Positions 1,040-20,006 of a DNA stretch of 64,000 nt are shown piece by piece; position 1 is the first letter of the stretch, and every line of letters starts with the position of its first letter. Both the position numbers and the translations under genes were made by a program. The stretch lies in NCBI RefSeq assembly GCF_029023825.1, contig NZ_CP118957.1, positions 1,023,501-1,087,500 of the forward strand. Direction: 5' to 3'. Source of the stretch: Enterococcus saccharolyticus subsp. saccharolyticus (GTDB taxonomy: Bacteria > Bacillota > Bacilli > Lactobacillales > Enterococcaceae). A model generated the notes under the pieces. That model made no database searches and was not told the DNA's origin. It saw only the letters and a program-made list of their open reading frames with translations.

Positions 1040-1057
1040 TTTGTGCAGAAAATAAAA

Positions 1058-1072: not shown

Positions 1073-1074
1073 TA

Positions 1075-1211: not shown

Positions 1212-1327
1212 GTGGACTTAGAACACGGAAAAAACAATCCGGTTGTTTGAGTCCTATTTGTGTTAGTGAATGGGATTCTTACAAGAGAGCATCCCATTCT
1301 ACTTGTTAGAAGGATGCTCTTTTTTTC
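1212..1327 (+). promoter_or_regulatory. ilv transcription attenuator (alternative hairpins and terminator)
   Basis: Three structures are visible. A first hairpin pairs GGACT (1214-1218) with AGTCC (1250-1254) and, inside it, AAACAA (1232-1237) with TTGTTT (1243-1248). An antiterminator pairs GAATGGGAT (1268-1276) with ATCCCATTC (1291-1299). The terminator pairs AGAGCATCC (1286-1294) with GGATGCTCT (1312-1320) before a T run. The antiterminator and terminator share 1291-1294, so they exclude each other. No T-box core (GGTGG-ACC) is present here. Confidence 0.82.
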
Positions 1328-1362
1328 AGAAAAATCTGGCGTAAGGAACTAGGAGTGGAACT

Positions 1363-3045
1363 ATGAGAAGCGATCAAATAAAAAAAGGAATTGATGCTGC
1401 ACCAGCTAGAAGTTTGTTATATGCGACAGGGCAAGTAAAGAATATTCAAGATATGAATAAGCCGTTTATTGCTATCTGTAATTCATATATTGATATTGTC
1501 CCTGGACATGTTCATTTAAGAGAACTAGCTGATGTGGCAAAAGAAGCAATTCGTGAAGCAGGAGGTATTCCGTTTGAATTCAATACAATTGGTGTTGATG
1601 ACGGAATTGCGATGGGTCACATCGGGATGCGCTACTCATTACCAAGTCGTGAATTAATTTGCGACTCTGCAGAAACAGTTATTAACGCTCACTGGTTTGA
1701 CGGAGTTTTTTACATGCCAAACTGTGACAAAATTACACCAGGAATGATTATGGCAGCGATGCGTACTAATGTACCAGCTATTTTCTGTTCAGGTGGCCCA
1801 ATGAAAGCGGGTATTGATCCACGTGGTCATCAAATTACATTGTCAAGTATGTTTGAAGCGGTTGGTGCACATAAAGCAGGAACAATGTCTGCGGAAGAAT
1901 TTAAATTTATGGAAGAAAATGCATGTCCAACATGCGGTTCATGCGCAGGAATGTTTACGGCCAATTCAATGAATTGTTTATTAGAAATTTTAGGATTAGC
2001 TTTACCAGGAAATGGAACGACATTGGCAGTTTCAGAAGATCGTCGTGAGCTTGTTCGTCAAGCTGCGTTTCATTTAATGGATTTAGTTAAAAAACAAATT
2101 AAACCACGTGACATCGTGACGAAAGAAGCGATTGATGATGCCTTTGCCTTAGACATGGCAATGGGAGGTTCAACCAATACGGTTCTTCATACGTTAGCAA
2201 TTGCCAACGAAGGGGAAATTGATTACAACTTAGCCGATGTGAATGACATTGCCAAACGTGTACCGTATCTTTCAAAAATTGCGCCATCGTCTGCTTATTC
2301 GATGCATGATGTTCATGAAGCTGGTGGTGTTTCTGCTATTATTCGTGAACTCTGCGATATAGAAGGCGCTATTCATCCAGACCGTATAACAGTTACTGGT
2401 AAAACGATTCGTGAAAATGTTCAAGATGCAGTCATTCATAATACAGAAGTGATTCACCCGAAAGAAAATCCATATAGTCCAGTTGGTGGTTTATCTATCC
2501 TTTATGGAAATATCGCCCCTGAAGGCAGTGTGATTAAAGTAGGTGGGGTCGATTCAGATATTCATGAATTTAGAGGCGAAGCTATTTGCTTTAGTACACA
2601 TGATGAAGCAGTAGCAGCGATTGATGATGGCACAGTTAGAAAAGGACATGTCGTGGTCATTCGTTACGAAGGGCCAAAAGGTGGTCCAGGGATGCCTGAA
2701 ATGTTGGCACCTACTTCTAGCATTGTTGGTCGTGGTTTGGGTCGGGATGTAGCCTTAATTACGGATGGACGTTTCTCAGGAGCAACGCGAGGCATTGCCG
2801 TGGGACATGTTTCACCAGAAGCCGCAGCAGGCGGTCCATTAAGTTTGGTTAAAGACGGCGATATTATTACTATTGATTTAACAAATCGTACATTGAATGT
2901 GGAAGTATCGGATGAAGAATTAGCGGAACGCGAAAAAACACGTCCGAAGTTTGAATTTAAAGTAAAACATGGTTGGTTAGCACGTTATACAGCATTAGTA
3001 ACATCTGCCCATACTGGGGGAATTATGCGAGTTCCAGAAGACTAG
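1363..3045 (+). CDS. ilvD: Dihydroxy-acid dehydratase
   Basis: 560 residues, full length for IlvD, which dehydrates dihydroxy-isovalerate and dihydroxy-methylvalerate in valine and isoleucine synthesis. Candidate Fe-S cluster cysteines are visible at about Cys39 (AICNSY), Cys121 ([10 protein letters not shown]) and Cys194 ([11 protein letters not shown]). The C-terminal domain has the GRFSGATRG motif. It is the first structural gene after the attenuator, with ilvB starting 11 nt downstream after an AGGAGG site. There is no ilvE or leuABCD in the operon, so the last transamination and leucine-specific steps must be encoded elsewhere or be absent. Confidence 0.97.
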
Positions 3046-3056
3046 GAGGAAATTTA

Positions 3057-4763
3057 ATGAAGAATCAAGAACAAGAAATAGCTCAAAAAATGTCAGGCGC
3101 AAGACTTTTATTAAAATGCTTGCAAAAACATGATGTTGAATTAGTTTTTGGGTATCCTGGTGGTGCGGTTCTTCCATTATATGATGCTTTATACGATGCA
3201 GAAATTCCAAATATCCTAACAAGACATGAACAAGGCGCGGTACACGCGGCAGAAGGATATGCCAAAGCAACTGGCAAACCTGGTGTAGTAATTGTAACAA
3301 GTGGCCCTGGGGCAACAAACGTTGTAACCGGAATTGCCGATGCGATGGGCGACTCAGTTCCCCTAATTGTTATTACAGGGCAAGTTGCGACACCTGGTAT
3401 TGGAAAAGACGCGTTCCAAGAAGCAGATATTTTAGGAATTACACTACCTATCACAAAACACAATTATCAAGTGCGTGATGTAGAAGAATTAGAAAAAACA
3501 ATCGATGAAGCTTTTCATATTGCGACAACAGGTCGTAAAGGTCCCGTGGTGATTGATTTACCAAAAGATATTTCAATTATTGAAGGGACGTATACACAGC
3601 GTACAAAACCCGTAAATTTGGTTAGTTATCAACCAACAACCAATCCTTCACAATTACAATTAACGCGCTTGATGGATCAATTGAAAAAAGCGAAAAAACC
3701 GATTGTGTTGGCAGGAGCAGGTATTACGGCTTCTAAAGCGGCAGACCAATTGAAAGAGTTTGTAGAACGCTACAAACTACCGACAGTCAATACGTTACTT
3801 GGTTTAGGAACACTACCAGCCGATTGTCCATATTTCTTAGGAATGGGCGGCATGCACGGTAGTTACGCAGCGAATATGGCATTAGCTGAATGTGATTTAC
3901 TGATTAACATAGGAAGTCGTTTTGATGACCGTTTAGCGACATGTCCGAGTCAATTTGCAACAGGAGCAGTGATTGCGCATATTGATATCGATCCCGCTGA
4001 AATTGGTAAAATTATCCCAACAGACATTCCAATTGTAGGAGATGCCAAAAACGCGTTAGAAAAACTATTGGCTTTTGAACCATTTGATATCGATAGTCAA
4101 GAATGGCAAGATATTTGCCAAGAGCGTAAACAAAACTACCCATTTAAGTATGACCGTGACAACAAAGATGAAATTAAACCACAACGTGTTATTGAAAAAA
4201 TTGGTGAAATTACAAAAGGACAAGCCTTTGTTTCAACCGATGTTGGGCAACATCAAATGTGGGTTGCACAATATTATCCATTTAATTTCCCAAATCAATT
4301 GATTACAAGTGGTGGACTAGGAACGATGGGCTTTGGAATTCCAGCAGGAATTGGCGCGCAATTTGCGTATCGTGATCGTCCGGTAATTGTTTTTGTTGGG
4401 GATGGTGGTTTCCAAATGACCAACCAAGAATTTGCAATTTTAAACGAAAATGGTTTGAACGTAAAATTTGTTTTAATCAACAATGGTTCATTAGGAATGG
4501 TTCGCCAATGGCAAGAGCGATTCCATAATGAAAGACGTTCTTCTTCTGTCTTTGACGGACAGCCAGATTTTGTTAAATTAGCAGAGGCTTATGGAATTGA
4601 TGCTGTGCGTATCATGAATCCTGCCACTGTCGATAGCGAGTTAGAAGCAGCCTTTGCAAAAGAGGGACCATTGTTAATTGAAGTAATTGTTTCAAATTCG
4701 GAACAAGTTATGCCAATGGTTCCAGCAGGGATTCCTAATGATCAGATGATAGGGGTGGAATAA
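3057..4763 (+). CDS. ilvB: Acetolactate synthase, large (catalytic) subunit
   Basis: 568 residues counted from ATG 3057, which has AGGAGG at 3044-3049. An in-frame start at 2973 would lie inside ilvD without a ribosome site, so the later start is preferred. IlvB condenses pyruvate with pyruvate or 2-oxobutyrate using thiamine diphosphate. The activating Glu is in RHEQGAVHAAEGYA, and the ThDP-binding stretch runs from GDGGFQMT to LINN near the C-terminus. The biosynthetic type (not catabolic AlsS) is indicated by the ilvN regulatory-subunit gene 1 nt downstream. Confidence 0.96.
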   Translation: MKNQEQEIAQKMSGARLLLKCLQKHDVELVFGYPGGAVLPLYDALYDAEIPNILTRHEQGAVHAAEGYAKATGKPGVVIVTSGPGATNVVTGIADAMGDSVPLIVITGQVATPGIGKDAFQEADILGITLPITKHNYQVRDVEELEKTIDEAFHIATTGRKGPVVIDLPKDISIIEGTYTQRTKPVNLVSYQPTTNPSQLQLTRLMDQLKKAKKPIVLAGAGITASKAADQLKEFVERYKLPTVNTLLGLGTLPADCPYFLGMGGMHGSYAANMALAECDLLINIGSRFDDRLATCPSQFATGAVIAHIDIDPAEIGKIIPTDIPIVGDAKNALEKLLAFEPFDIDSQEWQDICQERKQNYPFKYDRDNKDEIKPQRVIEKIGEITKGQAFVSTDVGQHQMWVAQYYPFNFPNQLITSGGLGTMGFGIPAGIGAQFAYRDRPVIVFVGDGGFQMTNQEFAILNENGLNVKFVLINNGSLGMVRQWQERFHNERRSSSVFDGQPDFVKLAEAYGIDAVRIMNPATVDSELEAAFAKEGPLLIEVIVSNSEQVMPMVPAGIPNDQMIGVE

Positions 4764-4764
4764 G

Positions 4765-5238
4765 ATGAGACGAATTATAACGGCAATCGTTTATAACAAA
4801 TCCGGTGTATTGAGTCGAATTACAAGTGTGTTGAACCGTCGACAAGTAAATATTGAAAGTATTTCAGTTGGCGTGGTTGAAGCAGAAATTTCTCGAATGA
4901 CAATTGTCATTAATGTGAATACTTTGTCAGAAGCAGAGCAAGTAACCAAACAATTGAACAAACAAATTGAAGTGGTGAAAGTATCTGATATTACAGATGA
5001 TCCACATATCGAGAGAGAATTAGCTTTAATTCAAGTGAATGCACCAATGAGTATACGATCTGAGATTCAAGCAGTCATTGCACCATTTCGTGCCGATATC
5101 GTTGATGTGGCACAAAAAACTATTATTATTCAAGTGGTTGGTACCCACGATAAGATTGACGCATTTATTGATGTGTTACGTCCGTATGGTATCAAACAAT
5201 TGGCAAGAACCGGTATTACCGGTATAAAAAGAGGTTAA
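4765..5238 (+). CDS. ilvN: Acetolactate synthase, small (regulatory) subunit
   Basis: 157 residues. The N-terminal ACT domain (about residues 3-75, starting RRIITAIVYNKSGVLSRI) binds valine for feedback inhibition and activates the IlvB catalytic subunit. A second C-terminal domain follows, ending RTGITGIKRG as in other IlvN proteins. The ATG is 1 nt after the ilvB stop, so the subunits are made together. A 69-nt AT-rich gap separates it from ilvC, with no obvious terminator. Confidence 0.95.
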   Translation: MRRIITAIVYNKSGVLSRITSVLNRRQVNIESISVGVVEAEISRMTIVINVNTLSEAEQVTKQLNKQIEVVKVSDITDDPHIERELALIQVNAPMSIRSEIQAVIAPFRADIVDVAQKTIIIQVVGTHDKIDAFIDVLRPYGIKQLARTGITGIKRG

Positions 5239-5259
5239 TCGCATTAAATATGCTTTTAA

Positions 5260-6303
<1,044 letters not shown>

Positions 6304-6318
6304 GACATAAGTAGGGGT

Positions 6319-7584
6319 GTGAATAATTTGGGGTTAGTAACAAGAAATGATGTAGACCAAGCGTATCAGCTACTCAAATCAGCTGTTGCTCATACACCAT
6401 TACAATATGATCGATATCTATCAGAGAAATATCAAGCAACAATCCTACTAAAACGAGAAGATCTGCAAAAAGTTCGTTCATTCAAATTGCGAGGCGCTTA
6501 TTATGCGATTAAAAAGCGCTCGCAAAGCGAACTAGCAGCAGGCGTTGTGTGTGCCAGTGCAGGAAACCATGCTCAAGGAGTTGCGTACACTTGTCGAGAG
6601 ATTGGTGTCCAAGCCGTAATCTTTATGCCAAGTACAACGCCACAACAAAAAGTATCACAAGTTTCTTTCTTTGGTGGCAATAATGTCACGATTGAATTAG
6701 TAGGAGATACCTTCGATGCTTCGGCAGCAGCAGCTAAAGCTTTTGCAAAAGAAAAAGGGATGGCGTTTATTGACCCGTTTGATGATCCCGCGATTATCGC
6801 AGGACAAGGAACGTTAGCCGTTGAAATGATGGCTGATGCGTTAGCAGAAAGTTATCAACCTGACTATGTCATTGCAGCTATTGGCGGCGGTGGTTTAATT
6901 AGTGGTGTTAGCACGTATGTAAAAGACGTTAGCCCAGTAACTAAAATTATTGGCGTGGAGCCAAAGGGAGCCCCTTCGATGCAAGAGGCTTTTGACTACG
7001 GCGCACCTATCGCCTTGGAACAACTCGATAAATTCGTAGATGGAGCAGCTGTAAAAGAAGTCGGACAACTTACCTATCAACATGCGAAAGAATATGTTGA
7101 TCAGCTGATGACAGTGGACGAAGGATTAGTTTGTTCTACAATTTTAGAATTGTATAGTAAGCAAGCAATTGTCGCAGAACCTGCAGGAGCGTTAAGTGTC
7201 GCGGCATTAGAAGCGATACAAGACGAAATTAAAGGGAAAACCGTTATTTGTATCATTAGTGGCGGGAATAATGACATTAATCGTATGGCTGAAATTGAAG
7301 AACGTTCATTGATATATCAAGGATTGATGAATTACTTTGTTATCAATTTTCCTCAACGCCCAGGAGCATTGAAAGAATTTGTTAACGATGTATTAGGTCC
7401 AGATGATGATATTACTCGTTTTGAATATACGAAAAAAATCAATCGTGGCTCAGGTCCAGTTGTTTTAGGTGTTTTATCAAAAACACGTGAGGATGTACCA
7501 AGTTTATTTGAGCGAATTGTTGAATTTGATCCAACATACATTGATTTAAGTGAAAACCAATCGTTATTCACCTTATTAGTCTAA
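6319..7584 (+). CDS. ilvA: Threonine deaminase (biosynthetic)
   Basis: 421 residues from GTG 6319. IlvA makes 2-oxobutyrate from threonine for isoleucine. The PLP lysine is in VRSFKLRGAYY near residue 55, and the glycine-rich phosphate loop is AIGGGGLISG. The C-terminus (about 335-421) is a single ACT-like regulatory domain, as in the Bacillus IlvA type. The start is uncertain: TTG at 6328 lies 10 nt after the TAGGGG ribosome site and may be the real one, giving 418 residues. A terminator follows, so this gene closes the ilv operon. Confidence 0.94.
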   Translation: MNNLGLVTRNDVDQAYQLLKSAVAHTPLQYDRYLSEKYQATILLKREDLQKVRSFKLRGAYYAIKKRSQSELAAGVVCASAGNHAQGVAYTCREIGVQAVIFMPSTTPQQKVSQVSFFGGNNVTIELVGDTFDASAAAAKAFAKEKGMAFIDPFDDPAIIAGQGTLAVEMMADALAESYQPDYVIAAIGGGGLISGVSTYVKDVSPVTKIIGVEPKGAPSMQEAFDYGAPIALEQLDKFVDGAAVKEVGQLTYQHAKEYVDQLMTVDEGLVCSTILELYSKQAIVAEPAGALSVAALEAIQDEIKGKTVICIISGGNNDINRMAEIEERSLIYQGLMNYFVINFPQRPGALKEFVNDVLGPDDDITRFEYTKKINRGSGPVVLGVLSKTREDVPSLFERIVEFDPTYIDLSENQSLFTLLV

Positions 7585-7588
7585 TGAA

Positions 7589-7619
7589 AAAGCAAAATCT
7601 TTCGAGATTTTGCTTTTTT
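7589..7619 (+). terminator. Rho-independent terminator of the ilv operon
   Basis: AAAGCAAAATCT (7589-7600), TTCG tetraloop, AGATTTTGCTTT (7605-7616), then T run. Confidence 0.93.
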
Positions 7620-7638
7620 CTGCTCTTTAAAGGAAACA

Positions 7639-7647
7639 TGCTATAAT
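7639..7647 (+). promoter_or_regulatory. Extended -10 promoter element
   Basis: TGCTATAAT (7639-7647), a perfect TATAAT with the extended TGn motif, 26 nt before the next ATG at 7673. No good -35 is visible, which is tolerated with an extended -10. Confidence 0.6.
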
Positions 7648-7672
7648 ATTACATAACAAAGGAGGGAGAAAA

Positions 7673-8713
7673 ATGCAGTTAACTTACCAAAAAACGAAGA
7701 AACAAAGTACAATTGTTTATGGCGAAATTTTATCCGCCAGTATTAAACCAGAAATGTTTCAAAATAAACACATTATTGTCGTAACGAATCAACGGTACTA
7801 CGATCGCTTTTTTGAAAAAATACAACACATTTTTTCTCCCCAACCAATTGATTGGTATGTTTGTAGTAATTTGATCTATGGAAACAACGTTCGGGAATTG
7901 ATGGATATATTAGATTTTTTAGGGCGTTTTCCACCAAATAAAGAATATTTATTTATCGCTTTTGGAAATGAAGGCGTCATTCAATTGACTGGTTTTGTTC
8001 AAAAAACAACAATTTTACCAGGTGACTTTTGGGTGTTACCGACTACGTTACGCGCTTTTGCAGTAGCTATCGTGGAAGATCGTTTCATCTGTAAACAACC
8101 AATGGAAATGTTGCTCATTGAAAAGAATTTACCTGAAAAAATCTTTTTAGATCAAACAATTGTTGCTGGACAGAAAGATGGGAAATTAGTTGATTTACAA
8201 ACGTTCATTCGTATAGGTTTAGTTCATGATTATGCTTTTTTACAAACATTGTTTAAGAACTTTCCGAATAAAAAACAGGTACAAGGAACCTCATTTATGG
8301 CGTTTGTCGAACAACTAACGACTAGCTATCAACTAGCTTCAAAAGAAATTGAAGACTTTGGTAAAATTTTTGAAGAAGCTTTTTATCTAACTACCAATGG
8401 TCATTTCCTATCAGAGAACATGAAACGTTTTCTAGGAGTAATGTTACATTTGTTTTGGAATCTTGAAATAATTGACTCTTCTTTTCGAATTAAGAATTTT
8501 ATGATTTGGTTAAAACATTTAGGGTTTCCAATTCTTTTTCCCGAGCAGATTTCGGTTGCTGAATACTTACAAAATGTGTTACATTTACAAAAAAAGTACC
8601 CACAGTTGGTGGTTTTGGCAGAAATTGGTACAATAGGAAGAGAGCAATCGATGACTGAAAAGCAGTTGATAAAGGTAATGGAACAGTATCAAAAAATGAT
8701 TGCAGAGATTTGA
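7673..8713 (+). CDS. Divergent 3-dehydroquinate synthase-like protein (AroB fold, probably not catalytic)
   Basis: 346 residues, the usual AroB length. Two segments align by eye to AroB. FGNEGVIQLTGF stands where the enzyme has GGGVIGDLAGF, and VLPTTLRAFAVAIV stands where it has PTTLLAQVDASVGGK. The NAD-binding glycines, the Asp of GDLAGF and the Asp/Lys of the second motif are therefore changed. The C-terminal half lacks a clear zinc-binding His pattern. The neighbours are ypiA and ypiB; in Bacillus these lie at the end of the aro gene region, which supports descent from aroB. The present role is unknown. The fold assignment is moderately sure; loss of activity is inference. Confidence 0.6.
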   Translation: MQLTYQKTKKQSTIVYGEILSASIKPEMFQNKHIIVVTNQRYYDRFFEKIQHIFSPQPIDWYVCSNLIYGNNVRELMDILDFLGRFPPNKEYLFIAFGNEGVIQLTGFVQKTTILPGDFWVLPTTLRAFAVAIVEDRFICKQPMEMLLIEKNLPEKIFLDQTIVAGQKDGKLVDLQTFIRIGLVHDYAFLQTLFKNFPNKKQVQGTSFMAFVEQLTTSYQLASKEIEDFGKIFEEAFYLTTNGHFLSENMKRFLGVMLHLFWNLEIIDSSFRIKNFMIWLKHLGFPILFPEQISVAEYLQNVLHLQKKYPQLVVLAEIGTIGREQSMTEKQLIKVMEQYQKMIAEI

Positions 8714-8722
8714 GGGAAGAAA

Positions 8723-9979
8723 ATGACATACAGTGAAAAAATGCTTCAAGCATTACAAAATGAAGATTTGGCTGAAGCGCAATTATCTTTAGAAGAAGCA
8801 TTAAAAAAAGACGATGATGCTATTTTAGCAGAATTAGGCGAAGAATTATTAGCGATTGGCTTTTTAGAAGAGGCGAAAGTTGTTTTTGCAACTTTAAAAG
8901 AACGTCAACCGAAAGAAGACGCGTATTATTTACCGCTTGCTGAAATTGCGATTGAGAATAATGAAATTGAAGAAGCTTTTGATTATTTAGAAGCTATTCC
9001 AACCACAAGTGACGCGTATCCACAAGCGTTATTGATTACAGCAGATTTGTATCAAGTTTTAGGAATTCCAGAAGTAAGTGAAGCAAAATTAAAAGAAGCT
9101 GCTCAGTTACTTCCAGATGAAAATCTGATTCAATTTGCTTTAGCAGAGTTATATTTTTCAATGGATAAGTTTTCTGAAGCAGAAAAAATTTATCGTTCTT
9201 TATTACAAGATGAAGAGTTAGATATTACAGGCGTGTCTATGACTGAAAGAATCGGTTCTTCATTAAGTATGCAAGGAAACTTTGAAGACGCAGTATTGTT
9301 TTTAGAAGAAGCGTTAGAAGAAGAACAAACAGATGATCGTTTATTCCAAACAGCTTTTGTCTATTTACAATTGAAAGAAAATGAGAAAGCTATTTATTAT
9401 TTACAACAATTACGTGCATTGAATCCACAATATCAAGCATTGTATTTATATCTAGCAGAAGCGCTACAAGAAGAAGAATTATTAGAAGAAGCACAAGCAG
9501 TCATTGAGGAAGGGATTCAAGAAAATCCATTTCAAGTTGACTTTTATCATTTTGCTTCTGAAAATAGTTACCGTCTGCATGATGCTAAAAAAGCAGAAGA
9601 ATTCTTGGTGAAAGCTTTAGAAACTGGCGAAAAGACTGATGAAACATTATTGACATTAAGTAATTTGTACTTAAATGAAGAAATGTTTGAAGAAGTCATT
9701 GATGCAGTTGGTCGTATGGAAGAACAAGAAAATCCATATGCTTTATGGAATTTAGCGCATGCTTATAATGAATTAGAAGAATTTGATTCTGCTGCAAAAT
9801 ACTATGAAGAAGCAAATGATGCGTTACATCATGAACCAGAATTCATGAAAGAATATGGTATTTTCTTACGAGAAGAAGGTCGCCTAGAAGAAGCTAGTCA
9901 TCTATTGTCTCATTATTTGGCTCATGAACCAGGTGATTTGGAGGTACAGTCTATTTTAGACGATTTATCAGAAAGATAG
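8723..9979 (+). CDS. TPR-repeat protein, YpiA family
   Basis: 418 residues made of tandem tetratricopeptide helices, rich in Glu, Leu and Ala. Repeats of the AxxxYYxxGxxxxA type are seen from about residue 10 to the end, for example LAEALQEEELLEEAQAVIEEG and LAHAYNELEEFDSAAKYYEEA. No signal peptide, so cytoplasmic. It begins 9 nt after the AroB-like gene and is followed by ypiB after 10 nt, the ypiA-ypiB order of Bacillus. TPR proteins scaffold protein contacts; the partner here is not known. Confidence 0.8.
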   Translation: MTYSEKMLQALQNEDLAEAQLSLEEALKKDDDAILAELGEELLAIGFLEEAKVVFATLKERQPKEDAYYLPLAEIAIENNEIEEAFDYLEAIPTTSDAYPQALLITADLYQVLGIPEVSEAKLKEAAQLLPDENLIQFALAELYFSMDKFSEAEKIYRSLLQDEELDITGVSMTERIGSSLSMQGNFEDAVLFLEEALEEEQTDDRLFQTAFVYLQLKENEKAIYYLQQLRALNPQYQALYLYLAEALQEEELLEEAQAVIEEGIQENPFQVDFYHFASENSYRLHDAKKAEEFLVKALETGEKTDETLLTLSNLYLNEEMFEEVIDAVGRMEEQENPYALWNLAHAYNELEEFDSAAKYYEEANDALHHEPEFMKEYGIFLREEGRLEEASHLLSHYLAHEPGDLEVQSILDDLSER

Positions 9980-9989
9980 GGTGAAAAAA

Positions 9990-10547
9990 ATGACCATCAA
10001 TGTTGCAGATAAAAAACGTTTTTTAAATTGGTTAGTGTCACATGAGTCTTTTTCACGACGAGAAGTTTCTTGGATTTTGAATTATTTAACGAATCACGAG
10101 ACGATATTGAAAAATGTTCATTTTGTTGAAATTGCTGATAAAACGCCTCGCGGAATTTGTGTGCAAACAACGACTATTGAAGGTGAGGCGATGTCCTTAT
10201 TTTTAGAAGGGAAAGTCTTTACTGATAGTGATCAAATTTTCCATGAAATTCGTTTGAATTGGAAAAATCCGTTATACTTAGAATGTCGTTTTAATCGTTC
10301 ATGGGAAAATGAATTCTTTTTGGCTGTTTTAGAAGACAATCCTTATCATCGTTGGAACGAAACCTTAGATGCTGACGTTGTTTCTAAGGTAGAGGAATAT
10401 TTTTTTAAAGAAGATGTAGAGATGAAAATTGCCGATTTATATAGACAAATCGATCAAGCCTTAGAAAATGATAATCACGAATTGTTTCTACAATTATCTG
10501 CCGAGGTTAATCAGCTATTAGAAAAGAAAGCATTAGTGACTGAATAA
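9990..10547 (+). CDS. YpiB / UPF0302 family protein
   Basis: 185 residues from ATG 9990, which lies 6 nt after AGGGTG. A GTG at 9981 is inside that ribosome site and would add only three residues. The protein starts with the RFLNWLVSHESFSRREVSWILNYL-type helical N-terminal domain of the UPF0302 family and ends with a short acidic helix that begins DLYRQIDQALENDNHELFLQ. It is the last gene of a three-gene operon. Its biochemical role is not established. Its terminator has been split by an IS (see 10547-12022). Confidence 0.8.
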   Translation: MTINVADKKRFLNWLVSHESFSRREVSWILNYLTNHETILKNVHFVEIADKTPRGICVQTTTIEGEAMSLFLEGKVFTDSDQIFHEIRLNWKNPLYLECRFNRSWENEFFLAVLEDNPYHRWNETLDADVVSKVEEYFFKEDVEMKIADLYRQIDQALENDNHELFLQLSAEVNQLLEKKALVTE

Positions 10548-10571: not shown

Positions 10572-11996
10572 GGCTCTTTGTCAATAAGGACTGATGAAGA
10601 GGAATTTTATAAATCAGAGTAAGTAGAGAAATCGTCTTACTCTGATTTTTTTGTTATTTTACAATAATCAACTGATTCATCATAAAAATTCTCGTTCTCA
10701 TATTGTCAAAGGATTTAAATCCATAACTCACTCGCTTCAGTGTTTTGATGTGTGTATTTTTAGCTTCTATTTTTCCGTTAGAATAAGGATATACCATGGC
10801 ATTTCGTATGCCTTCTTCATACTTAGTTAGTCCTTGGAGTTTTATATTATGGAAGCATTCATAAGTTTCTTTTAAAGCTGGTGAGTAATTCAATAAACGA
10901 TCGATCATCATAGCTTCTGTTAAATATGGATATTTAGGTGCACGAAAACTTCGCCATGTTTTATATTCTGTATGTTGGATTAAGCTTCTATTTTTTGTGA
11001 GATAACGCCAATTTGCTTTTAATTTAAAGTAGGCTTCTTTATTTTTCGTCACAGCGATTCGCTTCATTTCTTTAACTCTAAAATCCTGAAAGGATTTATT
11101 TAAATGTTTTATGATGTGAAATCGATCGATGACTACTTTCGCATTTGGAAAGACACGTTTCGTTAATTGGTCGTAAGCTGCATTCATATCCGTTACGAGA
11201 TAACGGACATTCATTCGAGAAGGGTTTTCCATAAAATAGTGTGTTAATTTGTTTAATTTCCTCTTTGGTAAAATATCCACGAGTTTTCCCGTTTCCCCAT
11301 CTGCACAAATAAAACTCATTTTATCTTCTAAAGAAGCGTGAGAACGAAATTCATCCACCATTAATACACTAGGCAAACTAGATGTGTTAGGATTTGGAAT
11401 ATAAGTGCGTAATCCTTTCAGGATTCGAATCACTGTGGTGATAGAAACATGACAAAGTTTAGCAATCAACGTAAGTGAGCATTTTTCTTTTAATAAATCG
11501 ATAACTTTGAATTTTACATGATAGCCAATCGAACAACGTTTTTCAACTAAAGAACTTTGGGCAGTCCAGTTACTTGAACATTCTTTACACTTGTATCGCT
11601 GTTTAAATATCTTGATAATTGTTGGAAGATGATTGTATTGATCTAATCGTACACGTACACATTTTTTTCCATTCTTCACAATTGAAAGCTTTCCGAACTG
11701 ATTTTGAGCTGTACATCCACAATTTGGACAGCTCTTTTGATAAGGAGAACAAGTAGCCTCAATGACGATTGTTTGTCTATTTTTGATAGTTTCGTAAGAA
11801 ACATGGATAATTTTTAAAGAAGGGTCTGTAATTCTTAGCATTTTTTTGATATGATTATTCATAAGACATACTCCTTTCTCTTGTTTATTTTGTAGTGATT
11901 TAATCATACAGGAAGTGGGTATGTTTTTTAATACCTAAAATTACAAATGGACTGATGAATTGAATTCAATTCATCAGTCCATTAAATTATAGAGCC
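10572..11996. mobile_element. ISL3-family insertion sequence, complete
   Basis: 1425 bp. The ends begin GGCTCTTTGTCAAT on the left and, read inward, GGCTCTATAATTTAAT on the right; GGACTGATGAA follows in both ends. It contains one transposase gene on the minus strand. The inverted repeats, exact 8-bp duplication and uninterrupted transposase indicate a recent and potentially active insertion. Confidence 0.93.
10654..11862 (-). CDS. ISL3-family transposase
   Basis: 402 residues from ATG 11862, which has GGAG upstream; an in-frame ATG at 11907 lacks a ribosome site. The N-terminal zinc-binding domain has CPNCGC and a later CKEC pair. A helix-turn-helix follows around LIAKLCHVSITTVIRILKGL. The DDE catalytic core is visible as Asp in VDEFRSHA, Asp in VTDMNAAYD, and Glu in NGKIEAKN. 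The gene is intact and is the only gene of the element. Confidence 0.95.
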   Translation of the reverse strand: MNNHIKKMLRITDPSLKIIHVSYETIKNRQTIVIEATCSPYQKSCPNCGCTAQNQFGKLSIVKNGKKCVRVRLDQYNHLPTIIKIFKQRYKCKECSSNWTAQSSLVEKRCSIGYHVKFKVIDLLKEKCSLTLIAKLCHVSITTVIRILKGLRTYIPNPNTSSLPSVLMVDEFRSHASLEDKMSFICADGETGKLVDILPKRKLNKLTHYFMENPSRMNVRYLVTDMNAAYDQLTKRVFPNAKVVIDRFHIIKHLNKSFQDFRVKEMKRIAVTKNKEAYFKLKANWRYLTKNRSLIQHTEYKTWRSFRAPKYPYLTEAMMIDRLLNYSPALKETYECFHNIKLQGLTKYEEGIRNAMVYPYSNGKIEAKNTHIKTLKRVSYGFKSFDNMRTRIFMMNQLIIVK

Positions 11997-12059: not shown

Positions 12060-13426
12060 CACTAGTGTTGCATTAAAAATTGTACTATTCCATGAAACAA
12101 AAAAATTCTTTATACTAGCACTTGGATGACTTATCCAAGACCAATACAAAGAACCACAATGTGGATAAGTATAAAACAAATTCTGCATTTAATAAATGGT
12201 TTTCTGCCATAAATTTAGAAAATCTTTCTGTTTGTGCTAAACAATTCATTGTCAATTACAATTCATATCGGAAAAAACTCTCTTTTGAAGCGGTTCTGAA
12301 GCTCTTTCTCTACGCCATTAACGAAGAAAAAGAAAGCTTACGTGATTTGAGTACCTCTCTAATCAACGAATCACTTCAGCTAGAAACTGATGTGACAACT
12401 ATCAGTCATACTCAATTATCGCGTGCATTTAATGCCCTTGATTCAAGCGTGTTAGAAGAAATCTTCCAACGGCTTTTAGAAAAAGTCCACTATCAGACAA
12501 GACCAACGAAACGAAACAGTCTGTATCTGATTGATTCCAGTACCTTTTCTCTCAGTTTGAAACGTCATAAGTGGGCGACTTTTCGCCAAACAAAATCAGG
12601 TGTTAAGTTACACTTAAACTACTGTTATATGGACGATACTACGATGTATCCCACTGATTTTACCTTAACGAATGCCCGTGAACATGATGTCAATCAACTG
12701 CCCTTGCTGGTGAATAAACCTGAAGCGACCTACGTTTTTGATCGTGGCTACTTGGATTTTGAAAAGATGGACCAGATGCATTGGGATGGCTACTTCTTCG
12801 TTACACGTATCAAGAAAAACACCACTGTTCGCTTGATTGAAACCTTGGAAAAATCACCCGAAAAAGAAATTCTACGAGATGAATCGGTTCGTTTGGGTTC
12901 TAAAGCGTATGTGACAACGCTGCTTCGTTTGGTCACCGTTCAAGATGACACAGGACGAGTGTTTCAATTTATTACTAATCGAATGGACTGCACGTCAAAA
13001 GAAATAGCGGACATGTATCACGCTCGGTGGCAAATCGAATTGTTTTTCAAACACATCAAACAACACATGACCAGTAAAACCTTCTTTTCTCAAAGTGAAC
13101 AGGGCGTGCAGAATCAATTGATTCTAACGATGATTTCTGCACTGCTCACGTTTCTCATCAAATTGGAAACAAAGACAGTAAAATCGGTGTTTCAGATCAA
13201 ACGATTCTTTCGATATTTACTCTTTCAACCAGTTGAATGTTGGTTAGAAAAGTTAATTCCCACATGAGAAATAAGAAAAATAGCTCGTTACTTTTGGTTT
13301 TCAGTTGAATAACAGCTAAAAAATTCTGGAAAAAGTCATCCTCTGCGTCAGCACAGCTTCTTTTGACCTATTTCCAGAGAAAGTGGTTTTCAGAATATTC
13401 TGAAAGGTTTTTATGCAACACTAGTG
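12060..13426. mobile_element. IS4-family insertion sequence, left copy
   Basis: 1367 bp with terminal inverted repeats starting CACTAGTGTTGCAT at 12060 and its complement ending at 13426. The transposase is on the plus strand. It is nearly identical to the right copy at 16360-17726. Its inner end lies inside the coding sequence of the racemase gene. Confidence 0.9.
12122..13267 (+). CDS. IS4-family DDE transposase (left copy)
   Basis: 381 residues. The start is TTG at 12122, directly after an in-frame TAG, because no ATG is available nearby. The DDE residues are seen as Asp in LIDSSTFSL, Asp in VFDRGYLDF and Glu in YHARWQIELFFKHIK. The last motif fits the Y-2-R-3-E-6-K signature of the IS4 family. 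The protein differs from the right copy in only its second residue (Asp here, Asn there), reflecting one G/A change, so the copies duplicated or were exchanged very recently. Confidence 0.93.
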   Translation: MDDLSKTNTKNHNVDKYKTNSAFNKWFSAINLENLSVCAKQFIVNYNSYRKKLSFEAVLKLFLYAINEEKESLRDLSTSLINESLQLETDVTTISHTQLSRAFNALDSSVLEEIFQRLLEKVHYQTRPTKRNSLYLIDSSTFSLSLKRHKWATFRQTKSGVKLHLNYCYMDDTTMYPTDFTLTNAREHDVNQLPLLVNKPEATYVFDRGYLDFEKMDQMHWDGYFFVTRIKKNTTVRLIETLEKSPEKEILRDESVRLGSKAYVTTLLRLVTVQDDTGRVFQFITNRMDCTSKEIADMYHARWQIELFFKHIKQHMTSKTFFSQSEQGVQNQLILTMISALLTFLIKLETKTVKSVFQIKRFFRYLLFQPVECWLEKLIPT

Positions 13427-14082
13427 ATTATGAACAAATCAATCAATTAGTCAATCAACGATTAGGAGGTTTGCATTCGGCCAAGATTCTTTTAGCTAGT
13501 GTTGATTTTGATGAGATCGAAAAACTGCAATCACAAAATGAATGGGAAAAAAGTGGTCAAATACTTGGAGAAGTTGCTAAGAGTTTGGAAAAAGCAGGAG
13601 CAGAATTTTTTTTAATTTGTACCAATACCATGCATAAGGTCGCAGACCAGGTCCAAGAGGCGGTAACAATCCCTATGCTGCATATCGCAGACGCAACAAT
13701 CAAAGAATTGAATCAAAACAAAATTACCAAAGTGGGATTGTTAGGAACCAAATATACGATGCAGCAAGACTTTTACAAGCAACGAATCCTTGCTTCTAAT
13801 ATTGAGGTACTTGTGCCTGAGTCGGAAGATATAGAGAAGATCAATCAAGTGATTTTCAATGAACTTGTCTTAGGTGAGATTACTCCCGAGTCCAAACAAG
13901 AGTATCAAATCATTATTGAAAAATTGATCGCAGCTGGTGCACAGGGAATCATCCTCGGATGTACAGAAATCGGTTTGTTGATCCAGCAGGATGACGTGAC
14001 GATCCCGATTTTTGACAAGACAGTGATCCACTCAAAAGCAGCAGTGGATTATGCTTTAAATGATTCGGAGCAACTAAACTAG
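13427..14082 (+). pseudogene. Aspartate/glutamate racemase-family gene, 5' end removed by an IS
   Basis: The reading frame runs out of the IS end into a racemase body, starting at YEQINQLVNQRLGGLHSAK. Intact family members carry about 20 further residues, including the glycine-rich GGM start. These are missing and replaced by IS-derived codons (the open frame begins at 13363). Both catalytic cysteine regions remain: ICTNTMHK near the middle and ILGCTEIG near the end. Without its own N-terminus and promoter it is very probably not functional. A second, intact racemase gene lies at 33677. Confidence 0.8.
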
Positions 14083-14224
14083 TGAGCCTGTTTGTAATCG
14101 CTAAACAAAAGAAATGTTAGCAAAATATTTCTTTTATTTACCACTCTTTTCATATTTGTTGTTGACATTGAATTGTTTCTAAGGTAAATTACTTTTTAAG
14201 CAAATAAAATAATTCGTCTGTTGA

Positions 14225-14480
14225 AGAGAAGAGTAGTTTTGTCGATCTTTTTAGAGAGGTTCTGGTTGGTGAAAAGAACTAAGGGAGAGAAGCGAAGATG
14301 GTCTCTGAGGATAATCCATCGATAGGTAGGTGGGTTCGGTCTGGCCGACCGTTAACATGGACACCATTTCTTATAGATGATGAGATGGGTTAAGGAAAGC
14401 TGATGCTTTCAAATAAAGGTGGTACCACGGTTATACGTCCTTTTGTCAACTCGTTGACAAAAGGACTTTTTTTATTTTAT
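14225..14480 (+). promoter_or_regulatory. T-box riboswitch upstream of the MetQ-type gene
   Basis: The T-box core GGTGGTACCACG (14419-14430 region) is followed by a terminator pairing GTCCTTTTGTCAAC (14437-14450) with GTTGACAAAAGGAC (14453-14466) and a T run. Stem I features are visible upstream (AGAGAGG and GGTTGGTGAAAA). An ATG triplet in GAAGATGGTCTC (14291-14302 region) would fit a methionine specifier, but I could not prove the specifier loop by eye. Uncharged tRNA would prevent termination and switch on the transporter gene. Confidence 0.85.
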
Positions 14481-14534
14481 TTGATAAATAATCAAATAGA
14501 CAATACAAATAGGAAAATAAAAGGAGCGATTGAG

Positions 14535-15398
14535 ATGAAAAAGGGTTGGAAAAAAATTATCGGTTTAAGTTTATTAGGTGCAGTGTTTCTAGGTTTGGCA
14601 GCTTGTGGAAATAGCGGTGATACTTCAGAGACAGGAGCTGCTGAAGGTGGCAATGAAGAACCAAAAACGATTGTTGTAGGTGCCGGAGCAACACCGCACG
14701 CAGAAATTTTAGAAGATGTGAAAGGTCGTTTGGCTGAAGAGGGTTACGATTTAGAGATCAAAGTGTTTGACGATTTTGTATTGCCAAATACAGCATTAGC
14801 AGATGGCGATCTAGACATCAATTTGTACCAGCACGAGCCGTTTTTGATCAATTTCAACGAAGAGCATGATACAGATCTGGTTGTTGCAGGCGATACGAAA
14901 TACTATTTCTTGCCTTTAGGTATCTATCCTGGACAAACATCTTCTTTGGATGAACTGGCAGACGGCGCAAAAGTTTCAATTCCGAATGATGCAACTAATG
15001 GGGGCCGTGCCTTACTGTTGTTACAGGATGCAGGATTAATCCAATTAAAAGAGGACGCAGACATTACGGCAACAGTGAGTGATATAGTAGAAAATCCTAA
15101 AAATTTGGAACTTGTTGAACTAGATGCTGCTCAAGTTGTTCGTTCTCTGGATGATGTGGATATTGCTGTCATCAATGCCAACTACGTTTTAGGTTCTGAC
15201 TTGAGTGTCAATGAGGATACATTGCTGACTGAAGCGAAGGATTCACAAGCCGCAGAAACCTATGCTTGTGTAGCAGCTGTTAAAGACGGTGCCCAAGACG
15301 ATGAAGCGATCCAAGCATTTCTTGCAGCTTTAGGATCTGATGAAACAAGAGAATTTATCGAAGAAACCTATCAAGGAGCGGTCATTCCAGTATTTTAA
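14535..15398 (+). CDS. MetQ/NlpA-family substrate-binding lipoprotein
   Basis: 287 residues from ATG 14535, with AAGGAG upstream; the earlier in-frame ATG at 14403 lies inside the T-box terminator. The signal peptide ends in a lipobox LAAC followed by GNSGD, so the protein is a membrane-anchored lipoprotein. The body has the NlpA/MetQ pattern (VVGAGATPHAEIL, DLDINLYQHEPF, IPNDATNGGRAL, AVINANYVL), which binds methionine or its derivatives for a MetNI ABC transporter. No metN or metI gene is next to it, so it must use a transporter encoded elsewhere. It is the only apparently functional cargo gene of the composite transposon. Confidence 0.88.
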   Translation: MKKGWKKIIGLSLLGAVFLGLAACGNSGDTSETGAAEGGNEEPKTIVVGAGATPHAEILEDVKGRLAEEGYDLEIKVFDDFVLPNTALADGDLDINLYQHEPFLINFNEEHDTDLVVAGDTKYYFLPLGIYPGQTSSLDELADGAKVSIPNDATNGGRALLLLQDAGLIQLKEDADITATVSDIVENPKNLELVELDAAQVVRSLDDVDIAVINANYVLGSDLSVNEDTLLTEAKDSQAAETYACVAAVKDGAQDDEAIQAFLAALGSDETREFIEETYQGAVIPVF

Positions 15399-15410
15399 TC
15401 AAGCTCTTGA

Positions 15411-15443
15411 AAAACGCCGAGAAGTTTTCGGCGTTTTTTTTTT
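15411..15443 (+). terminator. Terminator of the MetQ-type gene
   Basis: AAAACGCCGA with TTCGGCGTTTT and a long T run of more than ten. Confidence 0.9.
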
Positions 15444-15453
15444 TTTATGTGTA

Positions 15454-16187
15454 TTGAAAACCCCTGGCTAAGCCGGGGGTTCCAAAGAGCTTCCAGCGAG
15501 GTATTAAAAAAGCCTCCCAAAAATGATAAGATGAAATTGGTTTCCCGACCACCACATCCATCAATTTAGGAGGTGCCTATTATGAAAAAGGCTAATGAAA
15601 GTTTATCACACACGACATGGAAATGTAAGTACCACATTGTTTTTGCACCAAAATATAGACGACAAGTGATTTATGGAAAGTATAAGAAAAGTATAGGTGA
15701 GATCATCCGAACATTATGTGAAAGAAAAGGAGTGGAGATCATCGAAGCAAATGCGTGCAAAGATCATATCCACTTACTCGTAAGTATCCCACCAAAATAT
15801 AGTGTATCAGGTTTTGTAGGCTATTTAAAAGGCAAGAGTAGCTTAATGATTTTTGACAGACATGCGAATTTGAAGTATCGGTATGGGAACCGAAAATTTT
15901 GGTGTAGAGGGTATTACGTGGATACAGTAGGAAGAAATAAGAAGCAGATCGAAGAATACATTCGGAATCAAGTACAAGAAGATTATGTAGCAGATCAGCT
16001 AACATTGTTTGAAGAGTATGATCCGTTTACAGGACAAAAAAACAAGAAGAAGTGAAAGAGATTCTTTAAGGATCAGTGAGTAAAAGTGGTGCAAGTGGGA
16101 AACCGTTCAGGAAGCCTTTTAGGCTATGGCCGGTAAAAGAGGCTTTCAGCCGAAGAACAAACCTCCAGTTCACACTGGAGGTTTTGA
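15454..16187. mobile_element. IS200/IS605-family element (tnpA only)
   Basis: The left end has a subterminal hairpin AACCCC...GGGGGTT (15459-15481) and the right end AACCTCCAG...CTGGAGGTT (16160-16183). These are imperfect palindromes of the type used by HUH transposases, without terminal inverted repeats or target duplication. One tnpA gene lies between. The exact ends are approximate. It lies within the composite transposon cargo, just after the MetQ terminator. Confidence 0.8.
15582..16055 (+). CDS. tnpA: IS200/IS605-family transposase TnpA (HUH Y1)
   Basis: 157 residues from ATG 15582, 8 nt after TAGGAGG; a GTG at 15573 overlaps that site. The single-strand transposase signature is present: the HUH pair in DHIHLLVSIPP and the catalytic Tyr in the C-terminal helix near KKQIEEYIRNQ. 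The length is normal for IS200 TnpA and the gene is intact. No tnpB accompanies it. Confidence 0.93.
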   Translation: MKKANESLSHTTWKCKYHIVFAPKYRRQVIYGKYKKSIGEIIRTLCERKGVEIIEANACKDHIHLLVSIPPKYSVSGFVGYLKGKSSLMIFDRHANLKYRYGNRKFWCRGYYVDTVGRNKKQIEEYIRNQVQEDYVADQLTLFEEYDPFTGQKNKKK

Positions 16188-16359
16188 TTGAGAAAAAATA
16201 GCATGACTACGAATGACCAATCAATGAATAATCGATCATGACCAAAATACCGAAAGTTCAGAACTAGCTATTTTATTTACTTGAGACGATAACAAGAAAA
16301 ATCAGTCAGTTTTCCCAGTAATCAAAAAAATTTTATTTATTGTTATTTATAAATTTTTT
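16188..16359. other. Gene-free stretch between IS200 and the right IS copy
   Basis: AT-rich, no open frame of note. AAAAATAGC near 16195 could pair with GCTATTTT near 16269 but with a 65-nt gap, so no clear terminator. Nothing else recognised. Confidence 0.5.
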
Positions 16360-17726
16360 CACTAGTGTTGCATAAAAACCTTTCAGAATATTCTGAAAAC
16401 CACTTTCTCTGGAAATAGGTCAAAAGAAGCTGTGCTGACGCAGAGGATGACTTTTTCCAGAATTTTTTAGCTGTTATTCAACTGAAAACCAAAAGTAACG
16501 AGCTATTTTTCTTATTTCTCATGTGGGAATTAACTTTTCTAACCAACATTCAACTGGTTGAAAGAGTAAATATCGAAAGAATCGTTTGATCTGAAACACC
16601 GATTTTACTGTCTTTGTTTCCAATTTGATGAGAAACGTGAGCAGTGCAGAAATCATCGTTAGAATCAATTGATTCTGCACGCCCTGTTCACTTTGAGAAA
16701 AGAAGGTTTTACTGGTCATGTGTTGTTTGATGTGTTTGAAAAACAATTCGATTTGCCACCGAGCGTGATACATGTCCGCTATTTCTTTTGACGTGCAGTC
16801 CATTCGATTAGTAATAAATTGAAACACTCGTCCTGTGTCATCTTGAACGGTGACCAAACGAAGCAGCGTTGTCACATACGCTTTAGAACCCAAACGAACC
16901 GATTCATCTCGTAGAATTTCTTTTTCGGGTGATTTTTCCAAGGTTTCAATCAAGCGAACAGTGGTGTTTTTCTTGATACGTGTAACGAAGAAGTAGCCAT
17001 CCCAATGCATCTGGTCCATCTTTTCAAAATCCAAGTAGCCACGATCAAAAACGTAGGTCGCTTCAGGTTTATTCACCAGCAAGGGCAGTTGATTGACATC
17101 ATGTTCACGGGCATTCGTTAAGGTAAAATCAGTGGGATACATCGTAGTATCGTCCATATAACAGTAGTTTAAGTGTAACTTAACACCTGATTTTGTTTGG
17201 CGAAAAGTCGCCCACTTATGACGTTTCAAACTGAGAGAAAAGGTACTGGAATCAATCAGATACAGACTGTTTCGTTTCGTTGGTCTTGTCTGATAGTGGA
17301 CTTTTTCTAAAAGCCGTTGGAAGATTTCTTCTAACACGCTTGAATCAAGGGCATTAAATGCACGCGATAATTGAGTATGACTGATAGTTGTCACATCAGT
17401 TTCTAGCTGAAGTGATTCGTTGATTAGAGAGGTACTCAAATCACGTAAGCTTTCTTTTTCTTCGTTAATGGCGTAGAGAAAGAGCTTCAGAACCGCTTCA
17501 AAAGAGAGTTTTTTCCGATATGAATTGTAATTGACAATGAATTGTTTAGCACAAACAGAAAGATTTTCTAAATTTATGGCAGAAAACCATTTATTAAATG
17601 CAGAATTTGTTTTATACTTATCCACATTGTGGTTCTTTGTATTGGTCTTGGATAAGTCATTCAAGTGCTAGTATAAAGAATTTTTTTGTTTCATGGAATA
17701 GTACAATTTTTAATGCAACACTAGTG
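16360..17726. mobile_element. IS4-family insertion sequence, right copy (inverted)
   Basis: 1367 bp, same ends as the left copy, with the transposase on the minus strand. Its outer end lies 21 nt before the conserved inverted repeat of the CRISPR leader. Confidence 0.9.
16519..17664 (-). CDS. IS4-family DDE transposase (right copy)
   Basis: 381 residues, identical to the left-copy transposase except residue 2 (Asn for Asp). TTG start at 17664. The same DDE motifs and Y-R-E-K signature are present. Both genes are intact, so either could drive movement of the composite unit. Confidence 0.93.
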   Translation of the reverse strand: MNDLSKTNTKNHNVDKYKTNSAFNKWFSAINLENLSVCAKQFIVNYNSYRKKLSFEAVLKLFLYAINEEKESLRDLSTSLINESLQLETDVTTISHTQLSRAFNALDSSVLEEIFQRLLEKVHYQTRPTKRNSLYLIDSSTFSLSLKRHKWATFRQTKSGVKLHLNYCYMDDTTMYPTDFTLTNAREHDVNQLPLLVNKPEATYVFDRGYLDFEKMDQMHWDGYFFVTRIKKNTTVRLIETLEKSPEKEILRDESVRLGSKAYVTTLLRLVTVQDDTGRVFQFITNRMDCTSKEIADMYHARWQIELFFKHIKQHMTSKTFFSQSEQGVQNQLILTMISALLTFLIKLETKTVKSVFQIKRFFRYLLFQPVECWLEKLIPT

Positions 17727-17735: not shown

Positions 17736-17916
17736 ATAAGATAATGTGTGCGAATCCTAAGCTCCCATAAATTTCCTAGGAGATTCGCACCACTAAAATA
17801 TCATTAAATGATAAAATAAATACATTTATATTCTATTTTACCAAAAAATACATATAATTGGGCGATACTCATCAGAAAATGTATCCTCTTCAAACCATTT
17901 CCCCCCATAAATCGCC
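17736..17916 (+). promoter_or_regulatory. CRISPR leader, type I-C-like
   Basis: An AT-rich stretch immediately upstream of the first repeat. It contains the inverted repeat GTGCGAATC (17748-17756) and GATTCGCAC (17782-17790) around a CCTAAGCTCCCATAAA-like centre. From memory, I-C systems of streptococci and relatives carry a very similar GTGCGAA...TTCGCAC block between cas2 and the array. Here the place expected for cas2 is occupied by the transposon end. Confidence 0.65.
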
Positions 17917-18310
17917 GTTGCAGTCTTCATGCCTGCATGGATTGAAATCGTTTTTGCGCTGACTACTAGTGTATGCACCTCTTTGTTGCAGTCTTCATGC
18001 CTGCATGGATTGAAATGATCTTAGAATCATTACTACCTAAATTGTCAGAAGTTGCAGTCTTCATGCCTGCATGGATTGAAATCACAAGCTTGCTTTGACG
18101 TTTTATCCGATGTAAAGTTGCAGTCTTCATGCCTGCATGGATTGAAATTTCGAAAGCATCAGCTACATTTAAATCCAGTTTTTGTTGCAGTCTTCATGCC
18201 TGCATGGATTGAAATTATAATAGACGTAAGAATGAACACACTACAAAATGTTGCAGTCTTCATGACTGCATGGATTGAAATAAACTATGTGCACCCCACG
18301 CTTTGCAGTC
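17917..18310 (+). CRISPR. CRISPR array, six 32-bp repeats, type I-C-like, no cas genes
   Basis: Repeats at 17917, 17985, 18051, 18117, 18184 and 18250 (32 bp each), starting GTTGCAGTCTTCATGCC and ending GCATGGATTGAAAT. Spacers are 36, 34, 34, 35 and 34 bp and all different. Repeats 1-5 are identical; repeat 6 has one change (ATGACTG). A seventh, degenerate repeat (from 18302, TTTGCAGTC then diverging) follows a sixth spacer cut to 20 bp. The ATTGAAAT end and 32-bp length match the I-C repeat family. The leader is on the left, so new spacers would enter there. No cas gene is found in the window. Confidence 0.93.
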
Positions 18311-18349
18311 CTCCACCAGCATAAACGGTAGTTTGAAAATCAATAATAA

Positions 18350-18505
18350 GACTTATTTAGGGTCATTCAAAAATTGCAATATAAAAATGTAAATGATTTT
18401 AATGAACTATGTGTATCCTATATAAATAGTTCACAGAATTTGAAGGATGAGTTAGAGTATAACAATATAAATTGTTTTATCGCTTTTGTTTATATGCTAA
18501 AATAA
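18350..18505 (+). other. Unassigned 51-codon open frame in the array gap
   Basis: The frame is open from 18350 to TAA at 18505 and reads DLFRVIQKLQYKN, then NDFNELCVSYINSS and ends FIAFVYMLK. It has no ATG, GTG or ribosome site at the front. It may be the tail of a lost gene. I do not recognise it. The surrounding 18311-18625 region is very AT-rich and otherwise featureless. Confidence 0.2.
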
Positions 18506-18625
18506 TAATTATATTCTATACAATGAGTTGGATTAAAATAACGAGTTTGAAAAGATTCTACTAGGTGTATGTTACAAATTTTATAAGGTGTGAACAGAAA
18601 TATAGAATTAAATATTCCTGTTGTC

Positions 18626-18707
18626 GTTACAGTCTTCATTACTTCATGGGTTGAAATAGCTACAGGCGTTTCGCTTGATTGTTTAGCATCAAGTTGCAGT
18701 CTTCATG
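18626..18707 (+). CRISPR. Relic CRISPR unit (degenerate repeat, 35-bp spacer, partial repeat)
   Basis: 18626-18657 is a 32-bp sequence that keeps both repeat ends (GTTACAGTCTTCAT and GGGTTGAAAT) with several internal changes. After exactly 35 bp, the normal spacer length, GTTGCAGTCTTCATG starts again at 18693 and breaks off after 15 bp. This is an old end of the array separated from the live part by about 315 bp. Confidence 0.75.
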
Positions 18708-18862
18708 ATTGATATGATGAACTATGTAAATGCGATGTCTTATGTTTGTATTAAATTTTCATTGCTAAAATATGTAATCTGCACATGAAAAATACGATAG
18801 GTATTTTTGTCAGACTCAGTGAGTAATCTGAAAACGGCATTAAATTAGTAGTAGCATATTTT

Positions 18863-18929: not shown

Positions 18930-20006
18930 ATGAAAAAAATTCTCTCCACACTTGCATCACTTATCTTCGGAGGAACAATTGGTTTGTTTTTTGTTTGGTA
19001 TACGATTATCTATCAGCAATGGGGAATATTTCAGTATTTAGTATTGATGTTTGCGGTTTGCTTCTTTTTTGTCATTCATCTTGTTATTCATGAGGTAGGA
19101 CATTTAGTTTTTGGAAAGTTATCGGGTTATCAATTTAGTAGCATTCGTTTTTTTTCTATGGCGTTAACTAAAAACAAAGACGGAAGATTTTATTTTCATC
19201 GTTTTAACGTTCCAGGAACTTTAGGGCAATGTTTGATGATTCCGCCAAAACAAGAAAAATTTGTGTTTAAATTATATTTATTGGGTGGAGGATTAGGCAA
19301 TTTATCAATGAGTCTGCTAGCTTTGCTTATTTTGGGTATTCATAATTCGTATGCTTTATTTTTTTGCTTAGTTGGTGTTTTTATGGCAGTAACAAATTTA
19401 ATTCCTACAAGTTTTAATGATGGTATGAGTTATCGCTTAGCAAATTCTAGCAAAGAGCAAAGGGATTTATTATATCTTCAATTGCAAGTGAATTATCTGA
19501 CTTCTTTAGGATATGCATATGATGAATTACCTGAAGATTACTTTCAACCTATTGCTAGTAATCCGAAGCATACATATTTTAATGATTGGCAGACATTTTT
19601 AATTGCTGGACGTTATTTAATTTATGGTAAATGGGAAGAATATCGTCAGTCTTTGGAATGCATTTGGCAAAATCAGGAGGAACTTATTTTACCTTATCGA
19701 CTGGAATTGAAGAAAGAATTGCTTTTTGCATTATGCTTAACTAATCCAGATGATGAACGAATCACTGCTTTATGGAATGATAAGCAACTAAAACAAACGT
19801 TGAGACAACCATCTATCAGTCATCAACGATTGAAAGCTGTGTATACAAAATATGTTCTGAAAGATGATTATGCTGTGCAGGCGATGATGAAAGAAATTAA
19901 GCAAAAAAAATGGACGGCATTAAATCAAGGAGACCTTCAATCAGAATTGAAAGTCATTCATCAGCTTGAACAACATTTTTTGGTAGAAAAAGAGGCGAAA
20001 GAATGA
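18930..20006 (+). CDS. M50-family membrane metalloprotease (site-2 protease-like)
   Basis: 358 residues. The N-terminal part is membrane-embedded: two hydrophobic helices (about 7-27 and 34-55), the second running into the zinc motif HEVGH (His54, Glu55, His58). Another hydrophobic segment (about 112-160) leads to NLIPTSFNDG, which supplies the third zinc-ligand-type Asp of M50 proteases. The C-terminal 190 residues are soluble and helical. It overlaps the next gene by 4 bp (ATGA). Substrate unknown. GGAGG precedes the ATG. Confidence 0.75.
   Translation: MKKILSTLASLIFGGTIGLFFVWYTIIYQQWGIFQYLVLMFAVCFFFVIHLVIHEVGHLVFGKLSGYQFSSIRFFSMALTKNKDGRFYFHRFNVPGTLGQCLMIPPKQEKFVFKLYLLGGGLGNLSMSLLALLILGIHNSYALFFCLVGVFMAVTNLIPTSFNDGMSYRLANSSKEQRDLLYLQLQVNYLTSLGYAYDELPEDYFQPIASNPKHTYFNDWQTFLIAGRYLIYGKWEEYRQSLECIWQNQEELILPYRLELKKELLFALCLTNPDDERITALWNDKQLKQTLRQPSISHQRLKAVYTKYVLKDDYAVQAMMKEIKQKKWTALNQGDLQSELKVIHQLEQHFLVEKEAKE

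Follow-up and report, generated by a model that had tools for sequence, protein, structure and literature searches.

The locus considered here raises the question of whether a CRISPR array that abuts a transposon end, with no cas genes beside it, is what remains of a once complete system or an array that stood alone. The window, a 64,000-nt stretch of the Enterococcus saccharolyticus subsp. saccharolyticus genome (one contig of 2.62 Mb), contains such an array to the right of a ypiB-like gene, with two insertions between them. Our analysis indicates that this is very probably a type I-C array that always stood alone, assembled and used in trans, rather than a remnant.

The array and the insertions on its left flank

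The features of the locus, in window coordinates, are as follows.

9996-10547, plus strand: ypiB-like gene, left neighbour of the array in both species compared
10572-11996, minus strand: ISL3-family element with a transposase ORF and an 8-bp target duplication, ATTTTTAG
12060-17726: composite element of 5.7 kb with inverted IS4-type copies at its ends and a 9-bp target duplication, AAAAAAATA
17748-17790, plus strand: 43-nt imperfect inverted repeat opening the leader, where homology with other I-C leaders starts
17748-17916, plus strand: leader, delimited by leader alignment, with TATAATTGGGCGAT at 17853 and ATAAATCGCC adjoining the first repeat
17917-18281, plus strand: six I-C repeats, five with C16 and the last with A16
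18149-18183, plus strand: spacer 4, with a protospacer in a prophage replication gene and a TTC PAM
18303-18711, plus strand: decayed trailer, with truncated repeats near 18303 and 18693, a degenerate repeat with five changes (18626-18657) and an old spacer (18658-18692)

The repeat, GTTGCAGTCTTCATGCCTGCATGGATTGAAAT, is 32 nt long and occurs in five identical copies (at 17917, 17985, 18051, 18117 and 18184), followed at 18250 by a sixth that differs from them at position 16 only. Its length of about 32 nt, its hairpin and its ATTGAAAT end, together with spacers of 34-36 nt, form the pattern of a type I-C unit, and the leader is homologous to leaders that adjoin I-C cas2, starting at the inverted repeat at 17748. 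Repeats and leader are intact, and a promoter scan of the leader returned no sigma-70 consensus pair. The exact repeat had zero matches in the 84,980 named genomes searched. To the right come an M50-peptidase-like gene (18930-20006) and, beyond it, a TmcAL-like gene. The preliminary description had recognized an apparent leader and five identical repeats, and had called the array orphan and type I-C-like; the repeat pattern, the leader homology and the lack of any I-C cas genes in the readable genome (about 97%) all agree with this, and we add to it the leader start at the 17748 inverted repeat, the sixth, one-change repeat and the decayed trailer extending to about 18711.

The side of the array on which cas genes would be expected is occupied by a transposon end, as had been described, and the IS4-type copies and the 9-bp duplication abutting the leader bear this out. 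The two copies (12060-13426 and 16360-17726) lie in opposite orientation, are identical at 1366 of 1367 bases, and enclose a racemase-like ORF, a T-box, a metQ-like gene and an IS200-type transposase; the leader starts 12 nt beyond the AAAAAAATA duplication. The ISL3 element is inserted in the loop of the ypiB terminator. When both insertions are removed, 91 nt separate the ypiB stop from the leader, which then starts about 50 nt after the terminator, close to the 60 bp or so given previously.

Because cas genes normally lie upstream of a I-C leader, on the side now occupied by insertion sequences, a complete I-C locus could once have stood between ypiB and the leader and had its cas genes deleted before or during the insertions. 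The insertions themselves argue against this, as both are clean, with target duplications and the 91-nt flank remaining, and therefore neither deleted cas genes. In addition, tblastn searches with I-C Cas proteins found no relic beside this array or the second array described below, and matched only I-B homologues.

Two minor observations concern the composite element. The racemase-like ORF begins inside the left IS4-type copy, and the T-box leader and metQ-like lipoprotein gene at 14212-15398 possibly represent mobile methionine-uptake cargo.

The corresponding site in Enterococcus sp. CU12B

A comparison with one sister species, Enterococcus sp. CU12B, bears directly on the history of the site. 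Positions 7-9585 of its sequence L051 correspond to positions 1039-10537 of the window at 81% DNA identity, with genes collinear up to ypiB, and the leader from L051 9736 onward corresponds to the window from 17748 onward. The order in CU12B is ypiB, 140 nt, leader and 11 repeats, with no IS and no cas genes; in this one sister species the same chromosomal site is thus likewise occupied by a cas-less array. Since the orthologous array carries neither insertions nor cas genes, we conclude that the array already stood alone when the insertions arrived. The preliminary description had placed a loss of the cas genes before or during these insertions, a claim that the CU12B array contradicts; the comparison with relatives that it proposed revealed the very arrangement, a site without neighbouring cas genes, that it had itself set against loss.

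On the right of the CU12B array lies a secG-est-rnr block, which in the E. saccharolyticus genome is found at 1808289-1811316 on the minus strand. The displacement of this block places a rearrangement breakpoint at the array trailer. The insertions and this right-side chromosomal breakpoint would have come independently, and probably removed no cas genes.

The I-C operon of CU12B is located elsewhere, directly after der-hup, in the order cas3-cas5-cas8c-cas7-cas4-cas1-cas2. All of its genes score over curated cut-offs, Cas3, Cas4 and Cas2 by general models. The der-hup locus can be matched between the species on both sides, with 83% identity on the left (der-hup) and 73% on the right (a MazG-like gene and cca), and the site of the CU12B operon is the exact site at which the E. 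saccharolyticus genome carries a type I-B operon. The CU12B operon serves at least five arrays, among which the cas-less ones are the array after ypiB, a variant-repeat and a standard-repeat array flanking rpoN, and one that is cut by a contig end. With the ortholog cas-less at the site, the insertions clean, relics absent beside the arrays and the CU12B operon at another locus, deletion of a local operon is an unlikely account of the window array. A transposon end beside a CRISPR leader, although naturally read as a sign of local cas loss, need not mean this.

One CU12B array (L052 5228-6160) combines a I-C leader with a diverged 34-nt repeat, GTTATGCTCTTGTAGGGAGCATATGGATTGAAAT, where the other arrays of this species use the 32-nt repeat.

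Cas genes of the genome and probable use of the array in trans

Outside the window, the repeat was found at one other locus of the E. saccharolyticus genome (1567198-1567362, minus strand; L010 17198-17362), with 0 matches to a reversed control pattern. This second array has three A16 repeats, the same leader and no cas genes. Its leader is damaged, lacking the TATAATTGGGCGAT stretch and most of the sequence as far as ATCGCC through a deletion running from TATAAT to ATCGCC. The array is wedged in between nagA and a gene for an ABC transporter.

A search for I-C cas genes and further arrays, as the preliminary description had advised, yielded this one additional locus, and neither csd1 nor I-C Cas7 (PF05107) had a match in the readable part of the genome (about 97%). 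The remainder includes two stretches that read as N, 1568001-1640000 (about 72 kb) and 1215001-1217500 (2.5 kb), in which I-C cas genes could lie; the check for masking covered about 0.4 Mb, and other short N gaps are possible. Only about 0.6 kb separates the second array from the start of the larger stretch, and I-C cas genes within this stretch could serve both arrays in trans, in which case the window array, whose repeats and leader are intact, would still be active. Against this, the ancestral operon site now carries the I-B system, the leader of the second array is damaged, and the N stretch makes up less than 3% of the genome, so we assign this reading only a small probability.

The only Cas1 found in the readable genome belongs to the type I-B operon, whose location is as follows.

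L014 11258-19307 and L015 (genome about 896-913 kb): type I-B system and very long array, at the der-hup locus

The operon follows der-hup in the order cas6-cas8b-cas7-cas5-cas3-cas4-cas1-cas2, and its proteins (Cas6, Cas8b1, Cas7/Cst2, Cas5b, Cas3, Cas4, Cas1b and Cas2) score above curated cut-offs. The presence of a complete I-B operon could suggest that its machinery processes and uses the window array as well. The repeat of the I-B array, GTCTTAATTTAAAATAATGAAATGTAAAT, differs from the I-C repeat and is unrelated to it in both sequence and structure, as it folds to 0 kcal/mol while I-C repeats form a hairpin, and the pre-crRNA of I-C systems is cut by Cas5d and not by Cas6. Use of the window array by the I-B machinery is therefore highly improbable. 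The long I-B array is itself interrupted by an IS256-like transposase gene.

Evidence that the window array was a stand-alone array extended in trans comes from its repeats. The addition of a new spacer copies the leader-proximal repeat. Position 16 is C in the five leader-proximal repeats but A in the last repeat and in those of the second array, so at least four spacers postdate the change; as the site has no cas genes beside it, they were acquired in trans. The G-C pair of the repeat stem here is C-G in CU12B, which preserves the stem. The stem of the C16 repeat is predicted to be weaker (-5.9 versus -11 kcal/mol), perhaps an early hint that constraint has relaxed.

A phage replication gene of one enterococcus matches spacer 4 at 29 of 35 positions (E 5e-5 for that genome), and its ortholog in a second does so at 27 of 35. 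The target matches phage primase/helicase families and its neighbour encodes a phage single-strand DNA binding protein. Both protospacers, which are those of this one spacer, are preceded by TTC, reported as the PAM of a I-C system (PMC8406640). Searches of the spacers against phages and plasmids gave no match, nor did the seeds of seven spacers against IMG/VR.

These observations suggest a common ancestor with one I-C operon elsewhere, probably at der-hup as in CU12B, that would have added spacers to several dispersed arrays with leaders and processed these arrays. This operon appears to have been replaced by the I-B operon in the E. saccharolyticus lineage, an exchange whose direction we infer. 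As the I-B Cas6 and repeat differ, the window array would now be dormant, and a return of I-C cas genes could make it functional again. The earlier suggestion that the array depends on Cas proteins encoded elsewhere or is inert is thus supported.

Dispersed I-C arrays and the leader inverted repeat

The nearest precedent is the orphan CRISPR2 of E. faecalis, a type II-A array at a fixed locus without cas genes that is functional when a matching Cas9 is supplied and can regain activity in strains lacking cas genes (PMC5491264). Both are fixed-locus arrays without cas genes that use, or in the case of the window array would have used, Cas proteins encoded elsewhere. They differ in that the window array is of type I-C and is one of several dispersed arrays, in a genome whose resident type is now another; judged from its sequence, it appears to be a type I-C counterpart of CRISPR2. 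Type I-C systems have been described in E. cecorum (PMC4393107) and in an Enterococcus survey (PMC10165109), and arrays without cas genes are reported in the genus. Those systems share the subtype and operon order, whereas the window array has no adjacent cas genes and its repeat is absent from the I-C repeats listed in PMC10165109. Arrays lying far from a Cas locus with which they share a repeat are generally known (PMC12814883; PMC5294841). In PMC12814883, too, there are several arrays for each Cas locus, and arrays far from it acquire spacers, but here the matching Cas locus is no longer found in the readable 97% or so of the genome. The window array is thus a new I-C example of a known arrangement, not a new kind of system.

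A survey of 105 Enterococcaceae genomes, using as its pattern the leader inverted repeat joined to the first repeat (0 matches to the reversed control), detected 75 leader-array units in 27 genomes, mostly with two to five per genome. Leader-bearing distal I-C arrays are therefore common in this family. The csd1 gene was present in 22 of the 105, 20 of which have units (two or more in 17 of these 20). Units without csd1 occur in seven genomes (the E. saccharolyticus genome, G069, G072, G076, G083, G089 and G091), a count in which draft assemblies may miss some csd1 genes. Type I-C memory in Enterococcaceae is thus commonly spread over several distal arrays, which persist after loss of the Cas operon and would be available again once gene transfer restored one.

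The distal copies also show where the functional leader starts, and so single out a conserved element. Homology between distal and cas-adjacent leaders starts at the 43-nt inverted repeat; in CU12B this element overlaps the stop codon of cas2. It marks I-C leaders across Bacilli, standing upstream of I-C arrays in 37 of 399 genomes drawn from the class (control 0), a few of the listed matches being repeat-internal or due to chance. Its form is GTGCGAA..., a conserved middle and ...TTCGCAC. The CA at positions 19-20 is invariant, although these bases were free in the search pattern; the outer arms are nearly invariant, but five bases of each arm were prescribed by that pattern. Pairs 6-38 and 9-35 vary with some excess pairing and the inner pairs do not, and because this covariation is weak we do not claim an RNA hairpin over a DNA site. 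Rfam contains no family for the inverted repeat. A role as terminator of the cas operon was rejected, as cas-less arrays retain it. We tentatively raise the possibility that it is a functional element of type I-C systems not characterised before, for example a spacer-integration anchor through which a single operon could supply many distant arrays. A distal array is also present in Enterococcus alcedinis, near ilvA.
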